This document shows, one piece after another, positions 21,514 through 30,216 of a stretch of DNA of 64,000 bases. The DNA is from Sandaracinus amylolyticus (lineage in GTDB: Bacteria; Myxococcota_A; Polyangia; Polyangiales; Sandaracinaceae), in assembly GCF_021631985.1 (NCBI RefSeq), contig NZ_CP070225.1, positions 7,626,001 through 7,690,000 on the forward strand. The letters are read 5' to 3'. The position numbers were made by a program, and so were the translations under genes. The notes under the pieces were generated by a model. It had not been told where the DNA came from and did not search any database. It saw only the letters and a program-made list of their open reading frames with translations. Every line of letters begins with the position of its first letter. Within the stretch, counting starts at the first letter, position 1.

Positions 21514-21520
21514 CGAGACG

Positions 21521-21973
21521 CTACCGCGCGGCGCGCTGATCGCCATCGAGGAACAAGCGCGCGATCACGACCGACCCACCGCCCTCGCGCGCGGTGACGA
21601 CGAGCTCGTGCATGAGCCGTCGCACCGCGCCGAGGCCGAGCCCGAGCCCGCGCCGCGACACCGGCAGCACCTCCGCGGTGGCGCGATCGACGCCCTCCGA
21701 CACTCCGTCGCGCAGCGCTTCGTCGAGATCCACGAAGCCCGGCCCGCGATCGATCGCCTCGACCTCGAGCACCCGCGGCGGCCCTCGCCGCACGCGCAGC
21801 GTGAGCGCGCCCGGAGGCCCGAATTTCAAGGCGTTCGTCGCGAGCTCGCTCGCCGCGATCGCCACCGCCCACTGCCCCCGCACGTCGAGCCCGGCGTCGC
21901 GCGCGAACGCCTTCGCGCGCGGCGTCACGTACGCCGCGTCCACCTCGCGCACGAGCTCGATCGTCTCGCTCAC
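21521..21973 (-). CDS. Second anti-sigma-type ATPase of stressosome operon
   Basis: This 150-aa GHKL ATPase starts at GTG 21973, which overlaps the stop of rsbT in a GTGA arrangement. It has an N-box (ASELATNALKFG), G1 (DRGPGF) and a Gly-rich G2 (GLGLGLGAV). Such domains serve as serine kinases or anti-sigma factors in partner-switching systems (RsbW, RsbT, SpoIIAB). As the fourth gene after rsbR, rsbS and rsbT it may be a second kinase or the downstream anti-sigma factor. No PP2C phosphatase gene is seen in the window, so how the signal is relayed further is not visible. Confidence 0.85.
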   Translation of the reverse strand: MSETIELVREVDAAYVTPRAKAFARDAGLDVRGQWAVAIAASELATNALKFGPPGALTLRVRRGPPRVLEVEAIDRGPGFVDLDEALRDGVSEGVDRATAEVLPVSRRGLGLGLGAVRRLMHELVVTAREGGGSVVIARLFLDGDQRAAR

Positions 21974-22632
21974 GGGACGCGCTTCGCGAGCACGATCGTG
22001 GTGCCGCGGCCCGGCGTGCTGGTGATCGAGAACTCGTCCATCAGACGCTTGCACGCGAGGATCCCGAGCCCCATCCCGGTGCGCGAGCGGTAGTCGCCGG
22101 CGAGGATCTCGGCGAGGTTCGCGATGCCGGGACCCTGATCCTCCGCGACGATCTTCATCCCGACGCGCGGCGACTCGAGCGCGGTGAGCGTGACCTTGCC
22201 GGCGCGCGCGTACGACCAGATGTTGCGCGCGAGCTCGGACACGCTGGTCGCGATCTTCGCCTGATCGGCGCGATCGAACCCGAGCTCGCGCGCGAACGCG
22301 CGCGCCCTCGTGCGCGCGTCCACGACGCCCGACTCCTCGACGATCGGGATCTCGATCGGCGCGAAGCCACGGGCACGAGGGCGGCGCTGCGCGAGCGCGG
22401 TGAGCCTCGCCATCGACTCGCGCCGCTCGGCGTCGGTCGTGAGGAAGAACGCGAGCCCCCGGCCGAGCTCGGTGATCACCACGTCGTCGAGCCCGACGCG
22501 ATCGAGATCGGAAGGTGTGCGCCCCGCGCGGCGGAGCGCGGTCTTGAGCACGCTCTCGGCGGTGATCGAGCTGACGTACGCGGACAGCACGCCGCGCACC
22601 TGCTCGCTCGTCCCGCGTGTGTCCGCGCTCAT
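21970..22632 (-). CDS. rsbT: RsbT-like switch protein/serine kinase
   Basis: This 220-aa protein has an RsbT-type ATPase in its last 125 residues: SELARNIWSYA (N-box), AEDQGPGI (G1), MGLGILACKRLMDEF (G2), all close to RsbT of Bacillus. RsbT kinases phosphorylate RsbR and RsbS and, when released, activate a phosphatase. The family is about 133 aa; here about 90 extra N-terminal residues, mostly helical, precede the kinase domain. The start at 22632 directly adjoins the stop of rsbS. The extra domain could dock on the stressosome or on another protein. Confidence 0.88.
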   Translation of the reverse strand: MSADTRGTSEQVRGVLSAYVSSITAESVLKTALRRAGRTPSDLDRVGLDDVVITELGRGLAFFLTTDAERRESMARLTALAQRRPRARGFAPIEIPIVEESGVVDARTRARAFARELGFDRADQAKIATSVSELARNIWSYARAGKVTLTALESPRVGMKIVAEDQGPGIANLAEILAGDYRSRTGMGLGILACKRLMDEFSITSTPGRGTTIVLAKRVP

Positions 22633-23076
22633 TCAGCCGTCCAGCTCGTGGGCGTCGAAGAGCACCTCGTCGTCGGGCGAGGGCGCGAGATCCCGATCGT
22701 CGATCCACGCGTCGTCGCCGCGGCGGCGCGGCGAGAGCATCGCGAGCGCGTCCTCCAGCGAGAGCGTGGTGGGCACTCCCTCGAGGAGCATCCCCATCTC
22801 GACGAGCGTCACCGCGATCCCGGGATCGAGCCCGGTGATGACGGTCCTGGCGCCCATCAGGCTCGCCATCTGCGCCATGTCGCGGATGCTCCGGGCGATG
22901 TAGGTGTCGAAGGTGTCGACGCCGGAGAGCTCGAGGATCACGCCGCGCACGTCGCCGCGCTGGATCTCGCGCCCGAGATCGCTCCGCAGCTCCCGGACCA
23001 GGCGGTCCCCGAGCTCGACCTGGATCGCGACCAGGAGCACGCCCTGGAGGCGGATGATCGGAATCGTCCCCGCCAT
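22633..23076 (-). CDS. rsbS: RsbS-like STAS protein
   Basis: This 147-aa single STAS domain matches RsbS (PIIRLQGVLLVAIQVELGD). In Bacillus RsbS the phosphorylated Ser59 lies in IDSFIAKV; here the matching segment is FDTYIARS, with Thr58 at that place. The second site, the Thr of VLTG, is kept as Thr81 (VITG). After the domain there is a roughly 30-residue extension rich in Asp, with two tracts (RRRGDDAWIDDRD and SPDDE). Its start at 23076 is 3 bp after rsbR. It would be the scaffold protein of a stressosome with RsbR. Confidence 0.88.
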   Translation of the reverse strand: MAGTIPIIRLQGVLLVAIQVELGDRLVRELRSDLGREIQRGDVRGVILELSGVDTFDTYIARSIRDMAQMASLMGARTVITGLDPGIAVTLVEMGMLLEGVPTTLSLEDALAMLSPRRRGDDAWIDDRDLAPSPDDEVLFDAHELDG

Positions 23077-23079
23077 CGA

Positions 23080-24129
23080 TCACTCCGCCGCGGCGGGCGA
23101 GCGCGCCTGGCGCAGGTGGCGCAGGCAGTCCTTGAGGCCCGCCTTGAGGTTGCGGAGCGTGCGCACCTCGCTGAGGTCCGCGCCGATCTCGACGAGCGTC
23201 TGCGCGATCGCCGGGCTCAGCCCGGTCAGCACGCAGCGCGTGCCGAGCAGGTTCGCGGCGCGCACCACCTTGAGCAGGTAGTCGGCGGTCTGGGTGTCGA
23301 CGACCTCGACCCCGGTGATGTCGATGATCACGCAGCGCGACTGCGTCTCCACGATGCGCTCGAGGAGGTTGTTCATGATCTCCATGCTGCGCTTGGTGTC
23401 GACGACACCGACGATCGGCAGCACGAGCACGTCGTCCCAGATCTCCATGACCGGCGTGGAGAGCTCGCGGATCGCCGCGGCCTGGCGCTCGATCGTGAGC
23501 AGCTTCGCCTCGAGCTCGCGCGTCAGCGAGTAGCTCGTCTCGGAGAGCGTCTGTCTCCAGGGATCCGCCTCGGCGCCCCACACGTCGATCGGCTTGATCT
23601 CGAATCGACACACGTCGTCGCCGCGCCCGCGGCACGTCGGCTCGATCGCGAGCAGCGGGCGACCGAAGAACGACGAGCACCAACCGCTCGCATAGCCGGT
23701 GAGCGTGTGACAGACGGGCTCGTCGCTGCGGCCCAGCTCGGCGCCGTGGATCGCGGCCTCGTAGGAGTTCGTCCACGTGCCCTGCATGTGGAAGTGGCCG
23801 GTCGCGCGATCGAATTCGATCTTCGTCGGCTCGGCGCGGACGATGCCCTCCCACGTGTGGATCACCGGGCCCGACGCGAGCTCGTCGACCTCGGTATCCC
23901 ACCGGTAGAGCTTCGAGAGCGTCCTGTGGTCCTCGGTGCCGCAGCGATATCCGAACTGCGAGAGAATTCCGCGAGAGAGCCTGTCTCCGAGCTGCTCCCC
24001 GAGCAGCTTTCGCAACGTCGCGAGCGCCTCGACACGGAAGAGCAGCATTCGATTCTCGCCGAAGAGAACACTGCCGCTCTCTGGATGGAACTTCAGCGCA
24101 GAGCGAAGATCGAAATCGGACGCCTTCAT
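23080..24129 (-). CDS. rsbR: RsbR paralogue with XylR-N/V4R sensor and STAS domain
   Basis: This 349-aa protein starts at ATG 24129 with CAGGAGCG upstream. Residues 15-120 match the XylR N-terminal region (MLLFRVEALATLRK, SQFGYRCG), then a V4R-type domain (about 125-185) with GYASGW, FFGRPLL and CRGRGDDVC (Cys166, Cys174). A linker helix (195-225) leads to a C-terminal STAS domain (about 225-335) with the two RsbR phosphothreonine positions, Thr279 (VVDTQT) and Thr302 (VLTG). Family knowledge: such V4R domains bind aromatic or other small hydrophobic ligands. So a chemical signal may feed this stressosome. Confidence 0.88.
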   Translation of the reverse strand: MKASDFDLRSALKFHPESGSVLFGENRMLLFRVEALATLRKLLGEQLGDRLSRGILSQFGYRCGTEDHRTLSKLYRWDTEVDELASGPVIHTWEGIVRAEPTKIEFDRATGHFHMQGTWTNSYEAAIHGAELGRSDEPVCHTLTGYASGWCSSFFGRPLLAIEPTCRGRGDDVCRFEIKPIDVWGAEADPWRQTLSETSYSLTRELEAKLLTIERQAAAIRELSTPVMEIWDDVLVLPIVGVVDTKRSMEIMNNLLERIVETQSRCVIIDITGVEVVDTQTADYLLKVVRAANLLGTRCVLTGLSPAIAQTLVEIGADLSEVRTLRNLKAGLKDCLRHLRQARSPAAAE

Positions 24130-24287
24130 CTCGTGGTCGCTCCTGGTCGTCGACGCGCGCGCTCCCTTGCGCACGCGATTCCCGTTCAACACACGACCGA
24201 TCGCCCGCGTCGTGCCGCGGGCGCGACATCGCGAGATCGGTCCGGGTCGGCGTGCAGAAAACCGCGCACGAGCCCCCGTCGACTCCG

Positions 24288-24317
24288 ACGCTAGCGACGA
24301 CCGAGCGGTGATGTCAA
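24288..24317 (-). promoter_or_regulatory. Candidate housekeeping promoter for stressosome operon
   Basis: On the minus strand TTGACA (24317-24312) is followed after 18 bp by TAGCGT (24293-24288). This is the best -35 box I see in this GC-rich gap; the -10 is weak (3 of 6). Transcription would begin about 150 bp before the rsbR start codon. Confidence 0.35.
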
Positions 24318-24375
24318 CGCAAAAACCCGCTGAGAACGCGAATCGCGACTGGCACTCTGATTCGCAATCTCGCGC

Positions 24376-24401
24376 CGAATCGTTACGTAACGTCGGATTC
24401 G
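24376..24401. promoter_or_regulatory. Palindrome in divergent promoter region
   Basis: CGTTACGTAACG (24381-24392) is a perfect 12-bp palindrome, flanked by CGAAT (24376-24380) and ATTCG (24397-24401), also inverted. It lies in the AT-richer gap between rsbR and the gene at 24601. It may be an operator. The rest of the 471-bp gap (24130-24600) holds no ORF I can support. Confidence 0.4.
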
Positions 24402-24600
24402 ATTCCGGACCTCGCATTTCGTGTCTTCCCCGCGATGGCACGACCCGCAGCGACGAAACGGAAGGTTTTCGGGGCGACGCGCCTCGCGGTCATCGCGGTG
24501 CGCGGCCGGGCGTCGCCGCGTCGTGCTCGCGACGTGCGTCGTCGTGGAGGCTTCGGCGTCACGAACGCGTCTTGCAGACCGCCGCGCGGAGGAGAGCGAG

Positions 24601-25383
24601 ATGCAGCCCACGATGGTCGGAGAGTCGCGCAAGCCCGAGATGCCCGCGCACGGGATCGGCGAGGAGCTCGGGGCGCTGCGCCCCCACATCGGGCCGAGCC
24701 CGCTCGCGGGCTACGAGCACATGAAGGGGTTCGGCGTCTTCGCGCTCCCGTTCGACTCGGGGCACGTGCTCGCGATGCGCGTGTTCCCCGACAACGACTT
24801 CGCGCCCTACGTGACCGTCTGGCACCGCACGCCCGAGGGCCACTGGCGCATCTACTACGACGCCGCGCGCGCCGACATCGCGTGCCCGCGCTACTACGGC
24901 GCGGCCGCCGAGCGGGTCGCGCCGGCGAACATCGTGCTGCGCTGGACCGGCCCGATGGAGCTCCACGTCACGATGGACGCACCGCGGCTCGACTGGACGA
25001 TCGACGTCGGCGCGCCGCTGCGCTCGCGCGTGCTCGGCGCGATGGGCACGAAGCTGCCGCGGATGATGTGGCGCTCGCGCCTGGTGCAGCGGCTCATCAC
25101 GCGAGTAGGCGACGCGGCGTTCGGCGTCGGTGACGTGACGCTCTCGGGCCGCGCGCCGAACGGTCAGCGCGCGTTCCTGATGCCGGAGCGCATGTTCCCG
25201 ATCGTCGAGTCCACCGCGCTGCTCGAGGGGCGCAGCCTCGGCCGTCCCACCCACGCCGACGAGAGCCCGCGCATCGGCGACATGAAGCTCCCCGCGAGCC
25301 CGGTGCTGGCGATCGGCGAGGCGTACTTCTCGATCGACGATCCCGAGGAGCACCGCCGCACGGTGGAGGCCTTGCAGAGCTAG
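24601..25383 (+). CDS. Conserved soluble protein, unrecognised
   Basis: This 260-aa product starts at ATG 24601 with GGAGGA in good position; the frame is open upstream to 24421. There is no signal peptide or membrane segment. The middle part (about 40-170) is rich in beta-type segments with Trp residues (YVTVWHRTPEGHWRIYYD, IVLRWTGPMELHV), as in a beta-barrel or lipocalin-like fold. I do not recognise a family. Its TAG stop shares the palindrome CTAG (25380-25383) with the stop of the opposing iolE gene. Confidence 0.7.
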   Translation: MQPTMVGESRKPEMPAHGIGEELGALRPHIGPSPLAGYEHMKGFGVFALPFDSGHVLAMRVFPDNDFAPYVTVWHRTPEGHWRIYYDAARADIACPRYYGAAAERVAPANIVLRWTGPMELHVTMDAPRLDWTIDVGAPLRSRVLGAMGTKLPRMMWRSRLVQRLITRVGDAAFGVGDVTLSGRAPNGQRAFLMPERMFPIVESTALLEGRSLGRPTHADESPRIGDMKLPASPVLAIGEAYFSIDDPEEHRRTVEALQS

Positions 25384-26384
25384 ACGCGGGAGCGGCGCGC
25401 TCGCGCGTGACCGGTGCGCGCCGCGAGCCCCGATCGATCGCGACGCGTGGTGGCGCGCACGATCGGCGCGCGCAGCCGCCGCGCGCGGCGCGCCCACGAC
25501 GCGACCCAGCGCGCCGCGTTCGCGAAGCCGAGCTTGGCATAGGTGAGCGGGTGCGCGATCGCGGGATCCTGCTCGGCCTCGACCACCCACCACCCGCGAT
25601 AACGCCGCCGCGCGAGCTCCGCGATCGCCGGCTCGAGCGCGAGCGCGCCGTCGCCCGGCACCGTGAACACGCCCTCGCACACTGCGTCGAGGAAGGGCAC
25701 GTCGCGCTCGATCGCGCGCGCGAGCACCTCGGCGCGCACGTCCTTGAGGTGCACGTGCACCACGCGCTCGCCGTGGCGCGCGATGCAGGCGCGGATCGCG
25801 GCGTCGCCGTCGCGCGGGCTCGCCGCTGCGTACGCGAAGTGCCCGGTGTCGAGCAGCAGGCCCACGTCGTCCGAGGTGTCCTGCATCAGGCGCTCGACCT
25901 CGTCGGCGGTCTGCACGACGGTGCCCACGTGCGGGTGGTACGCGACGCGGATCCCCTGCGCGCGCGCCCGCACGGCGAGTCGCTCGAGCTCGCGCACGAA
26001 GCCCTGCCAGGTGGCGCGATCGAGCACCGGACGGCGCGACAGCGGGCGCATCTCGCGATGCACCGCGCCGGTGGTCTCCGCGAGCACCAGCGTGTCGCAG
26101 CGCATCGCGCGCAGGAGCTCGAGGTGCGGCCCGAGGCGCTCGAGCTCGCGCTCCGCGCCCCGCTCGACGAGCTGCGCGGAGTACCACCCCGAGATCAGCG
26201 AGAGCCGATGTCGCGCCAGGAGTGGGCGCAGCTCGAGCGCCGTGCGCGGGAATCGATGTCCGAGCTCGATGCCCGCATAGCCCGCGGCGCGCGCCTCGGA
26301 GAGACAGCGCTCGAGCGGCACGTCCGCGCCGAGCTCGGGCTTGTCGTCGTTGATCCAGATGAGGGGATTGACGCCGATCCGCAC
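25380..26384 (-). CDS. iolE: Myo-inosose-2 dehydratase IolE
   Basis: This 334-aa TIM-barrel protein starts at GTG 26384 (VRIGVNPLIW), with GAGGGAGG upstream; the frame is open further back. It matches IolE closely: INDDKPELG near the N-terminus, AGYAGIELGHRFPR, and metal/substrate-binding segments YHPHVGTVV and LLDTGHFAYA, HVHLKDVR. It removes water from scyllo-inosose to form the 1,2-dione, the second step of inositol breakdown. Last gene of the iol operon. The C-terminus is Arg-rich and longer than usual. Confidence 0.9.
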   Translation of the reverse strand: MRIGVNPLIWINDDKPELGADVPLERCLSEARAAGYAGIELGHRFPRTALELRPLLARHRLSLISGWYSAQLVERGAERELERLGPHLELLRAMRCDTLVLAETTGAVHREMRPLSRRPVLDRATWQGFVRELERLAVRARAQGIRVAYHPHVGTVVQTADEVERLMQDTSDDVGLLLDTGHFAYAAASPRDGDAAIRACIARHGERVVHVHLKDVRAEVLARAIERDVPFLDAVCEGVFTVPGDGALALEPAIAELARRRYRGWWVVEAEQDPAIAHPLTYAKLGFANAARWVASWARRARRLRAPIVRATTRRDRSGLAARTGHARARRSRV

Positions 26385-26418
26385 AGCCTGGGCCTCCCTC
26401 TCCCTCGATCGTGAGCGA

Positions 26419-28239
26419 TCACGCGCGGCGACGCAGTGCGTCCTCGTACGCGCGCCGCGCCGCGCGCACGGTGTCGCGCTCCGAGACCTCGGGGATCGCG
26501 ACGTCCCACCACGCACCGCCGATGCCCGCGCTCGCGTCGGGATCGGTGTCGATGACGACCACGTAGGTCCGCGATGCGACGCGCGCACGCGCGAGCGCAC
26601 CGCGCAGCCCCTCGAGATCGGCGACCTTCTCGGCGCGCGCTCCGAGCGACGCCGCGTGCGCCGCGAAGTCGACGATGCGCGCGTTCTCTCCCACCAGGTT
26701 CGCGAAGGGCGCGCCGCCGCACGCTCGCTGCAGCCGGTGGATGCAGCCGAACCCGCCGTTGTCGAGCACGACGATCACGAGCTTCCGATCGAGCGCGATC
26801 GACTCGGCGATCGCGGTGTTGAGCATGAGATAGCTGCCGTCGCCGACCATCACGACGACCTGCGCGTCGGGGCGCGCCATCTTCACGCCGAGCCCACCCG
26901 CGATCTCGTAGCCCATGCACGAGAACCCGTACTCGACGTGGTAGTCGCCGGGCGCGCGCGAGCGCCACAGGCGATGGAGCTCGCCGGGGAGCCCGCCCGC
27001 CGCGCACACCACGACGTCGCTCGCGCGCGCCTGCTCGTTGACCACGCCGATCACCTGCGCGTCGAGCGGGAGCGCGCCCGCGCGATGTGCTTGCGCGCGC
27101 TCGGCGTCGGCGTGCCAGCGATCCATCAGCGCGCGCGCCCGCTCGGTCCATGCGCTCGCGGCGCGCCACGATCCGAGCGCGCCGTCGAGCTCAGCGAGGC
27201 CGAGCTTCGCGTCGCACACCAGCGGGACCCCGCCGTGCTTGCGCGCATCGAAGCCGCTCGCGTTGAGGTGCACCAGGCGCGCGCGCGGGAACAGCGTGCG
27301 CGACGCGGTCGTGAAGTCCGAGAGGCGCGTGCCGATCGCGAAGACCACGTCCGCCTCGGCCGCGAGCGCGTTCGCCGCCGAGGTGCCGGTCACGCCGATC
27401 GCGCCGACGCTCGAGGGATCGTCGCATGCGAGCGCGCCCTTGCCCGCCTGGGTCTCCGCGACCGGGACGGCGTGGCGCGACGCGAACGCCGCGAGCTCGG
27501 CCGTGGTCTCGGCGTAGTGCACGCCGCCGCCCGCGACGATCAGCGGACGCTCGCTCGACGCGAGGATCTCGAGGGCACGCGCGAGCTCGCTCGGATCGGG
27601 CGCGAGACGTCGCGGGACGTGCAACCGCCGCTCGAAGAAGTCGCACGGATAGTCGTGCGCGATCGTCTGCACGTCCTGGGGCAGACAGAGCGTCGCGGGC
27701 CCGCAGCGCGCGGGATCGGTGAGCACCTCGAGCGCCGCGGGCAGCGCGATGACGAGCTGCTCGGGGCGCGTGATGCGATCGAAGTAACGCGACACCGGGC
27801 GCAGGCAGTCGTTCACCGTGGCGCTGGGATCGCGCTCGTCCTCGAGCTGCTGCAGCACGGGATCGGGCGCGCGGCTCGCGAACACGTCGCCCGGCAGGAG
27901 CAGCACCGGCAGTCGATCGACGTGCGCGGTCGCGGCCGCGGTCACGAGGTTCGTCGCGCCCGGCCCGATCGACGTGGTGCACGCCATCATGCGCCGCCGT
28001 CGCGACGCCTTCGCGAACGCGATCGCGGTGTGCGCCATCGACTGCTCGTTGTGCGAGCGGTACGTCGGCAGCACGTCCTTGCTCGCCTCGAGCGCCTCGC
28101 CGAGGCCCGCGACGTTGCCGTGCCCGAAGATCGCGAACACGCCCGCGAACATCGGCATCTCCGCGCCCGCGATCACGACGCGCTGCGCCGCGAGCCAGCG
28201 CACGAGCGCCTGCGCCATCGTCAGCCGCACGGTCGACAT
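26419..28239 (-). CDS. iolD: 3D-trihydroxycyclohexane-1,2-dione acylhydrolase IolD
   Basis: This 606-aa thiamine-diphosphate enzyme opens the cyclic dione to 5-deoxyglucuronate. The cofactor-activating Glu65 is in RSHNEQSMAH and the ThDP motif starts GDGSYLMLN and ends NGGFGC, about 30 residues on. Length and motif order match IolD. It lies 34 bp before iolE and 76 bp after the aldolase-family gene. A hairpin lies in that 76-bp gap, which could uncouple expression of the two halves of the operon. Confidence 0.92.
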   Translation of the reverse strand: MSTVRLTMAQALVRWLAAQRVVIAGAEMPMFAGVFAIFGHGNVAGLGEALEASKDVLPTYRSHNEQSMAHTAIAFAKASRRRRMMACTTSIGPGATNLVTAAATAHVDRLPVLLLPGDVFASRAPDPVLQQLEDERDPSATVNDCLRPVSRYFDRITRPEQLVIALPAALEVLTDPARCGPATLCLPQDVQTIAHDYPCDFFERRLHVPRRLAPDPSELARALEILASSERPLIVAGGGVHYAETTAELAAFASRHAVPVAETQAGKGALACDDPSSVGAIGVTGTSAANALAAEADVVFAIGTRLSDFTTASRTLFPRARLVHLNASGFDARKHGGVPLVCDAKLGLAELDGALGSWRAASAWTERARALMDRWHADAERAQAHRAGALPLDAQVIGVVNEQARASDVVVCAAGGLPGELHRLWRSRAPGDYHVEYGFSCMGYEIAGGLGVKMARPDAQVVVMVGDGSYLMLNTAIAESIALDRKLVIVVLDNGGFGCIHRLQRACGGAPFANLVGENARIVDFAAHAASLGARAEKVADLEGLRGALARARVASRTYVVVIDTDPDASAGIGGAWWDVAIPEVSERDTVRAARRAYEDALRRRA

Positions 28240-28277
28240 TTGCCTCCTCCTCGCTCAGCTGGAGTGCTCGCTCGCGC

Positions 28278-28312
28278 AGGGCCCGCAGGAGAGCGTGCGA
28301 TTTCTGGGCCCT
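28278..28312 (-). promoter_or_regulatory. Inverted repeat between aldolase gene and iolD
   Basis: AGGGCCC (28278-28284) and GGGCCCT (28306-28312) form a 7-bp stem with a 21-nt loop in the iol transcript, just after the aldolase stop. It could be an mRNA processing or partial termination site. Adjacent GGAGTGCTCG (28261-28270) is a word shared with two other intergenic repeats. Confidence 0.35.
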
Positions 28313-28315
28313 CTC

Positions 28316-29413
28316 TCACGGCGGTGGGAGCATCACCTCGCGCACGTAGTGCACGAGGCGATCGAGCGCGCCCAGGAACTGGCGCAGCGTCTTGACGCTC
28401 GCGCCGAACGACTCGAACTCCGCGGGCTCCATCCCGTCGGGCTCGTACGCGCGCACGAAGTCGGGCAGCTGCCGCGCGAGCTCCTCGACGATCGCGGGAT
28501 CGACCGGCTCGTCGATCCGCGATCGCACCTCGACGCCGGAGTCGTCGAACGCGTCCTGCCACTCGGGCGGGATCGTGATCACCAGCTCGCCACCGATGAA
28601 CTCCGACCAGTGGTGGTGGCTGCGCATCGCGGCCACGAGCAGCTTCGCGCGGTGTCCGCGCTCGCAGAACAGTCGGTACGCGCGGCGCACGATCGCCGTC
28701 GACGCGTGCCGCACCATCTCGACGTCGAGCTCGATCTCGGGGGTCTTGCCCGCGCTGCCCTTCGCCACGAGGTCGCGCAGGTGATCGTCGATCCGGCCCG
28801 CCATGATCGTGATCCACGGGGTGACCAGCTCGCGATCGACGCGCGGATCGAGCCGCGCGAGCCCGCGGTCCACCGCCTCCGCGGCGGCGAGCGCCTGCGC
28901 GACCGAGAACGACACCGTCGCGTTGATCACGACGCCGTGCGCGGTCAGCTCCTCGATCGCGACGAGGCCGGCCGCGGTGGTCGGCAGCTTCACCGCGATG
29001 TTGGGCGCGATCCCCGCGAGCTCGATCGCCTGACCGATCATGCGCGCCGCGTCGCGGTAGACGCGCGGGCTCGCTTGCACGCAGAGCCGCCCTCGGGTGC
29101 CGCCGTAGCGCTCGAACGTGGGCCAGAGCAACATCGCGCCTTCGCTCGCGGCGAGCGCGACGAGGCGCCACGCGATCGACTCCTCGTCGTCGTTCGGATG
29201 GTCGCGCACCAGCGCGCGCGTGATCTCGTCCCAGCGCGGGCGATCGGCCTCGATCGCCTGCATCACGATCACCGGGTTCGTCGTCGCGCCGGTCGCGCCG
29301 CGCGCGAGCGCACGCTCGAGCGCGCGTGGCTCGCACGAGTCCACCCAGAGCTCGGTGACGGTCTCGCGCGTCATCCGTCGCAAGAGCGACCCATGCATCG
29401 AGATCGCGTTCAT
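28316..29413 (-). CDS. Transaldolase-family protein in the iol operon
   Basis: This 365-aa protein has the transaldolase signature: WVDS (Asp25), TTNP (Asn46) and the Schiff-base Lys142 in NIAVKLPTT. It is longer than TalB (about 317 aa). Its ATG overlaps the iolB stop (29410-29413) and it precedes iolD, so it is part of the inositol operon. In the classical pathway the last sugar-acid phosphate is cleaved by IolJ, an aldolase of another family. A transaldolase here could replace that step, or rework other inositol products. The exact reaction is inferred only from context. Confidence 0.85.
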   Translation of the reverse strand: MNAISMHGSLLRRMTRETVTELWVDSCEPRALERALARGATGATTNPVIVMQAIEADRPRWDEITRALVRDHPNDDEESIAWRLVALAASEGAMLLWPTFERYGGTRGRLCVQASPRVYRDAARMIGQAIELAGIAPNIAVKLPTTAAGLVAIEELTAHGVVINATVSFSVAQALAAAEAVDRGLARLDPRVDRELVTPWITIMAGRIDDHLRDLVAKGSAGKTPEIELDVEMVRHASTAIVRRAYRLFCERGHRAKLLVAAMRSHHHWSEFIGGELVITIPPEWQDAFDDSGVEVRSRIDEPVDPAIVEELARQLPDFVRAYEPDGMEPAEFESFGASVKTLRQFLGALDRLVHYVREVMLPPP

Positions 29414-30216
29414 TCGACGCCCTCCGGCCACCACGTGCGCGCGCCGGGCTCCATCACCCACGCGTGCTCGACGTCGAACGTCGGGCGGATGTACGGCGCG
29501 TCCGGCAAGTGCCGGATCACCCACGCGTAGTACATGCCGTAGCCCGGCGCGGCGACCTGCGCGTGCACGTGCCCCGCGGGGATCTTCACGGTGTCGAAGC
29601 CGCGCACCTTCACCACCGCGTCGCCGAGCTCCGCGTGCCCGTAGCCCTGCGGATGCGTGAACCGGTAGTGGTAGATCTCGGGCTGCGCGTGGTGGTGCGG
29701 CGGATAGCTCGACCAGCGCCCGGGCAGCGTGATCACCTCGCCGAGCACGAGCTCCGCGGCCGCGTCGGCGTTCTCGCGATCGAAGATCGTGCGCACCACC
29801 CGATGACACGCGCCGCGCACCTGGCCCCAGCCGCGATGTTCTTCGCGCACGTCGTCGGGCCCGTAGAGCGTCGCCGCGAACCGTCGCGTGCTCGCGGTCT
29901 CGTAGCGCGTGAGCTCGACCGCGCGACGCGCCTCGAACGTCAGCTCCGCGCCCGCCGCGACGTGCACGCAGCTCGGTGCATCGTCCCACAGCGATCGACG
30001 CGACCAGCGCGCGCGGCGTGGACCGACGTGCACGTCGACGTCGCCTTCCATCAGCAGCCACGCCGTCTCGCGCGTGGTGGTGGTGGAGAGTCGCTCGCCC
30101 GCCGTGAGCCTCACGACGGCGAAGCCGATGCCGGTGCCGTCCTCGTCGTCGACCTTCACGATCTCGGTCGTTCCGAGGGAGAGCCCCGCGCGGTGCTCGG
30201 TGAGGTGAAGGGCCAC
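29410..30216 (-). CDS. iolB: 5-deoxy-glucuronate isomerase IolB
   Basis: This 268-aa cupin enzyme isomerises 5-deoxyglucuronate to 2-deoxy-5-keto-gluconate. A metal site is visible in PPHHHAQPEIYHYRF and the following PAGHVHAQ. The length fits IolB. It is the first gene of iolB - aldolase - iolD - iolE. It is divergent from a lipoprotein gene, with 89 bp between. IolA, IolC, IolG and an inositol transporter are not in the window, so these steps must be encoded elsewhere or outside. Confidence 0.92.
   Translation of the reverse strand: MALHLTEHRAGLSLGTTEIVKVDDEDGTGIGFAVVRLTAGERLSTTTTRETAWLLMEGDVDVHVGPRRARWSRRSLWDDAPSCVHVAAGAELTFEARRAVELTRYETASTRRFAATLYGPDDVREEHRGWGQVRGACHRVVRTIFDRENADAAAELVLGEVITLPGRWSSYPPHHHAQPEIYHYRFTHPQGYGHAELGDAVVKVRGFDTVKIPAGHVHAQVAAPGYGMYYAWVIRHLPDAPYIRPTFDVEHAWVMEPGARTWWPEGVE

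Follow-up and report, generated by a model that had tools for sequence, protein, structure and literature searches.

The window analysed here is a 64,000-nucleotide stretch of Sandaracinus amylolyticus DNA (contig NZ_CP070225.1, positions 7,626,001 to 7,690,000). It contains four consecutive minus-strand genes encoding an RsbR-type protein, an RsbS-type protein, an RsbT-type switch kinase and a second small GHKL ATPase (Table 1). The genes are closely spaced, with a 3-bp gap between rsbR and rsbS, a 0-bp gap between rsbS and rsbT and an overlap between rsbT and the ATPase gene, so the tight leftward packing given in a preliminary description of this DNA matches in coordinates, spacing and strand. 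The complete R-S-T core claimed there is also present, each gene with the expected domains. The four genes co-occur in the same order in six other Myxococcota genomes (L001–L005 and L096, with RsbR identities of 52–83%), where the full order is R-S-T-X-ATPase, and such same-order orthologues indicate that the arrangement is not due to chance.

Table 1. Features of the operon and its cassette in window coordinates, and the sister modules found elsewhere in the genome.
Feature	Coordinates	Strand	Description	Evidence
rsbR-type gene	24129..23080	(-)	349 aa; XylR_N 7-107, V4R 119-180, linker helix ~202-222, STAS 226-318	Pfam, PDB sequence matches, AlphaFold2 model
rsbS-type gene	23076..22633	(-)	147 aa; single STAS, Thr58 at usual phospho-Ser site, acidic C-terminal tail	Pfam, alignment
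rsbT-type switch kinase	22632..21970	(-)	220 aa; GHKL ATPase ~90-220 and helical N-terminal extension 1-85	Pfam, tree, model
Second small GHKL ATPase gene	21973..21521	(-)	150 aa, GTG start	Pfam, tree, orthologues after rsbX in six genomes
rsbT/ATPase junction	21970..21973	(-)	4-bp overlap; relatives have a ~190-aa rsbX gene at the same point	
Upstream region	24130..24477		Within variable cassette; lower G+C (62-65%) than flanks (70-75%)	
Cassette, whole operon and upstream region	21514..24477		2,964 bp; absent from same-genus genome	
Sister module L041			PAS sensor, no X; same-genus orthologue	
Sister module L042			X and S present	
Sister module L043			X on opposite strand, no S found	

Pfam matches to XylR_N (1.3e-25), V4R (8e-15) and STAS (1e-14) in the RsbR protein were all far over the cut-off. 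By sequence, the N-terminus matched CapR/DmpR (8e-36), PoxR and MopR, and the best STAS relatives of the C-terminus were the RsbR proteins of Vibrio and Listeria (E 5e-31 and 2e-27). An AlphaFold2 model (pLDDT 80), for which the window protein was combined with eleven relatives, compared well with the phenol sensors PoxR, DmpR and MopR (Z 25–27 over 187–213 residues) and with the STAS domains of RsbS and RsbR (Z 17–21), and contained a linker helix (202–222) between sensor and STAS. The XylR_N/V4R region that had been suggested for this N-terminus is thus upheld by strong profile matches to both families and by a matching fold. Two VVDT threonines in the STAS domain, T245 and T279, are kept in all operon relatives and are presumably the equivalents of T171 and T205 in Bacillus subtilis; in other stressosomes, both are phosphorylated by RsbT.

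RsbS is a stand-alone single STAS domain (Pfam, 3e-9). In our alignment its Thr58 occupies the position of B. subtilis S59, an exchange shared with the nearest relative, L001, only, with serine in the others; a threonine there could in principle be phosphorylated. HATPase_c_2 was over its cut-off of 27.4 bits in both RsbT (50.5 bits) and the second ATPase (44.3 bits). RsbT keeps the catalytic motifs SELARN and GPG...GLG, at 132, 165 and 186, groups with RsbT-position proteins of other phyla (86/81), and has a model (pLDDT 89.8) closest to SpoIIAB (Z 18). Its first 85 residues (window 22378–22632) form a confident helical domain in the model. This N-terminal extension, which like the Thr58 exchange is absent from the preliminary description, is common to all four RsbT proteins of the genome and to others in the order; when 116 genomes of the order were searched, all of the matches read were on RsbT-like proteins. 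The extension had no informative Pfam match and only scattered, unconvincing sequence matches in the PDB, and fold searches with RsbT were filled by the ATPase domain. An origin from RsbU_N, suggested by a likeness seen by eye, was rejected after 114 of 2000 shuffles of RsbU_N reached as good a score and hhalign gave an E of 0.22. By sequence, sensor, STAS scaffold, RsbS and the RsbT kinase are all intact, and T245, T279 and Thr58 are present.

We detected the XylR_N-V4R unit in several other settings. Orphan RsbR proteins of XylR_N-V4R-STAS architecture were found at eight loci and are common in Myxococcota; in orphans L047, L048, L049, L089, L090 and L093, one or both of the phospho-threonines are replaced. 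The unit also occurs in sigma-54 activators, including L010, which was rejected as an RsbR on that ground, and, at L091:6210-8492, in a fusion with a hybrid histidine kinase bearing receiver and Hpt domains. Matches in Zixibacteria, Haloarcula and others were likewise rejected as RsbR proteins because they stand alone. At L006, L007, L008, L098 and L099, from bacteria and Haloarcula, a stand-alone XylR_N-V4R protein lies beside a conserved protein of ~63–74 aa without known family, as at L007:8001-8806, where the neighbor has 63 aa. A Cytobacillus plasmid protein (L100) is a candidate member from Bacillota, with a clear STAS domain and an XylR_N match under the cut-off (E 0.022).

The genome encodes six RsbR-type STAS proteins in total. 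Three sister R/T/ATPase modules (L041, L042 and L043) all include the second ATPase, and two RsbR proteins (L044 and L045) have no adjoining S or T gene. In L043, rsbX is placed between rsbT and the second ATPase gene but runs in the opposite direction (L043:9823-11487), and GGDEF-EAL and NtrC-type genes are found within the cluster. RsbU_N (PF08673) had no match in the genome at E up to 1, and a search for a sigma factor elsewhere in the genome returned no SigB/F/G (TIGR02980) match over the cut-off, from which we conclude that the Bacillus output route is absent; the operon itself contains no sigma gene. Four of the six relatives (L002–L005) have a histidine kinase gene immediately before rsbR; the window operon has no such neighbor. 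The position of this kinase gene hints at a two-component output in those four operons, and the kinase may be either an output or an input partner.

With this many paralogues, it is plausible, though somewhat less likely than not, that the window RsbR is one input among six, joining mixed stressosomes with the five other RsbR proteins and sharing their RsbX and outputs. Such mixing would accord with the two RsbR genes that stand apart from any S or T gene, with the frequency of orphan XylR_N-V4R-STAS proteins in Myxococcota and with the several RsbR paralogues of the B. subtilis stressosome (PMC9237108). However, the operon supplies an RsbS and an RsbT itself, which points to a private complex, and by tree and alignment both proteins have diverged from the sister copies. 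The mixed arrangement is compatible with the explanation that we prefer, a stressosome operon whose RsbR has a phenol/aromatic-sensor fold.

What the sensor responds to can be approached through MopR, in which we take H106 and W134 to be phenol contacts and C155, E178, C181 and C189 to be zinc ligands. In alignment these correspond to H91, W119, C140, E163, C166 and C174 of the window RsbR, all identical. The retention of these positions supports the small-ligand input proposed in the preliminary description as the best inference, and the sensor may well bind an aromatic compound. Among the operon relatives, the RsbR of L004 lacks the histidine contact and that of L005 lacks both the histidine and the zinc ligands, so the family cannot be taken as phenol sensors throughout. 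Next to the operon lie a methyltransferase gene and an inositol-type catabolic cluster, and no aromatic-degradation genes adjoin it. The cluster (window 25380–30216) comprises sugar isomerase-like, TPP enzyme, transaldolase-like and KduI/IolB genes.

We regard it as possible that the sensor keeps the XylR_N-V4R fold and senses something non-aromatic, such as a lipid, a hydrophobic metabolite, or redox or metal state via the zinc cysteines. An identity to MopR and PoxR of only about 30–33%, the histidine losses in L004 and L005 and neighboring genes for something other than aromatic catabolism would all suit such a sensor, but in the window RsbR itself both presumed phenol contacts and the four zinc ligands are kept. 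A small aromatic or hydrophobic ligand is the input that we carry forward.

The fourth gene had been described as extra to the classical three, and here the wider comparison led us to a different view. In the six relatives, the gene between rsbT and the orthologue of the operon's fourth gene codes for a SpoIIE phosphatase (~190 aa) that resembles RsbX, and Paraburkholderia and Deinococcus have, next after rsbT, a single gene for a protein that combines an ATPase with a SpoIIE phosphatase. The ATPase-domain tree placed all RsbT proteins on one side (86/81) and the fourth gene, its orthologues and the ATPase halves of the fusions on the other, with moderate support for the split between the two kinds. 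Of 30 loci retrieved for the order's best ATPase matches, 11 had T, X and ATPase genes in a row. The gene order of the relatives, the fusions and the tree together indicate that the ATPase is the usual RsbX partner in this group, and hence that the departure of the window operon is the loss of X alone; the comparison identifies R-S-T-X-ATPase as the ancestral unit. Because the small ATPase and RsbX are fused in other phyla, their pairing suggests that they act as one unit.

A rather doubtful alternative is that the second ATPase is an anti-target kinase of the RsbW/SpoIIAB type, which sequesters an output protein under the control of a STAS antagonist and so belongs to the output arm instead of partnering RsbX. 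The protein does have an HATPase_c_2 domain that keeps the SELATN motif, and it is present in all three sister modules, including L041, which has no X. Against this, no sigma factor adjoins the gene, the genome-wide search gave none of the SigB/F/G type, and its nearest kin in other phyla are fused to a phosphatase. We thus retain the reading of the second ATPase as an RsbX partner.

Directly after rsbT in the window operon, rsbX is absent, cleanly removed. The earlier remark that no phosphatase is seen nearby was confirmed, as there is none within the operon and the genome's five SpoIIE matches all lie elsewhere. Our search of the rest of the genome found two RsbX homologues (C1:10060953 and C1:7853477), both in sister modules. 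We rejected the idea that the phosphatase had moved and was not lost, since these homologues are 34–37% identical to the RsbX of L001 and are members of other modules. They could act on the window module in trans, and with X deleted from the window copy, reset is probably carried out by one of the two. In Listeria, RsbX restrains signalling in the absence of stress (PMC8765406), which leads us to predict a higher basal activity here unless a trans phosphatase compensates.

The operon is patchily distributed. In a same-genus genome that is syntenic on either side (91% and 89% identity), the stretch corresponding to window 21514–24477 is 24 bp long, and the nearest relative of the operon is in another family at a different genomic place, with 76% DNA identity. 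As for mobile-element hallmarks, no target duplication or end repeat was found at the cassette ends; either the operon arrived whole or the sister genome lost it, and end repeats do not tell which. Relative to L001, dN/dS was below 1 in all four genes (0.19–0.50, by a crude method and with diverged synonymous sites) and highest in RsbT, at 0.50. Decay of the operon, in which the loss of rsbX uncoupled the module and the remainder persists only through recent acquisition, would fit an X that is missing here though six relatives keep it, the patchiness within the genus and the high RsbT ratio, but is improbable given four open frames with intact catalytic motifs, the tight overlap of the reading frames where X was deleted, ratios under 1 throughout and the likewise X-less L041, which has a same-genus orthologue.

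Taken together, we consider it reasonably probable that the four genes form a stressosome operon, mobile or kept patchily, with an RsbR of the phenol/aromatic-sensor fold, a reset in trans and an output other than RsbU or SigB. In the proposed mechanism, RsbR and RsbS would form a core that holds RsbT, and a small aromatic or hydrophobic ligand would occupy the XylR_N-V4R pocket and move the linker helix. RsbT would then phosphorylate RsbS and RsbR and be released onto a target other than RsbU or SigB. The second ATPase would be the partner, now separate, of the RsbX phosphatase, with one of the RsbX homologues elsewhere probably resetting a copy that has lost its own. More speculatively, and unlikely as a whole, the operon would be a chemically gated stressosome in which a phenol-like ligand on RsbR frees RsbT, RsbT signals via its own N-terminal domain to a non-RsbU/SigB target, and a private phosphatase has been dispensed with, the reset falling to the second ATPase and the phosphatases of the sister modules.

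To our knowledge, the activating signal is unknown for nearly all stressosomes, light and oxygen being the exceptions, which makes this system worth testing. Its sensor fold has solved ligand-bound structures, so a defined compound could switch a stressosome and the signal could be traced from the ligand through to the freeing of RsbT. From the related loci, in addition, a five-part Myxococcota module emerges, R-S-T-X-ATPase. A search of the open-access literature found no paper pairing RsbR with XylR and none relevant on V4R with STAS, and we accordingly know of no paper there that describes an XylR_N/V4R RsbR.

Among known systems, the rsbRSTX stressosome of Vibrio vulnificus has a globin-coupled RsbR in a Gram-negative host without SigB, and the outputs of R-S-T-X modules with a globin sensor include kinases and c-di-GMP enzymes (PMC9237108). 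The window operon shares with it the R-S-T core, an N-terminal sensor on RsbR and a Gram-negative host without SigB, and relatives of the operon also keep rsbX after rsbT, often with a histidine kinase next door. It differs in having XylR_N-V4R in place of the haem globin, a second ATPase, no rsbX and an RsbT extension. In Paraburkholderia and Deinococcus (L102 and L103), operons of the form R-S-T-[ATPase-SpoIIE fusion]-kinase have the same core order and a related ATPase domain; there, ATPase and phosphatase form one polypeptide, whereas Myxococcota have two genes and the window operon has lost the phosphatase. With the sigma-54 activators XylR, DmpR, MopR and PoxR, the window RsbR has in common the sensor fold and the presumed phenol-contact and zinc residues, but it has neither the AAA+ sigma-54 domain nor a DNA-binding domain, and its effector is the STAS domain of RsbR, a protein that in stressosomes assembles a ~1.8-MDa complex with RsbS. 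YtvA/RsbL, in which a light-sensing LOV domain is joined to an RsbR-type STAS, likewise places a defined input domain on this scaffold, and the window protein has XylR_N-V4R where YtvA/RsbL has LOV.
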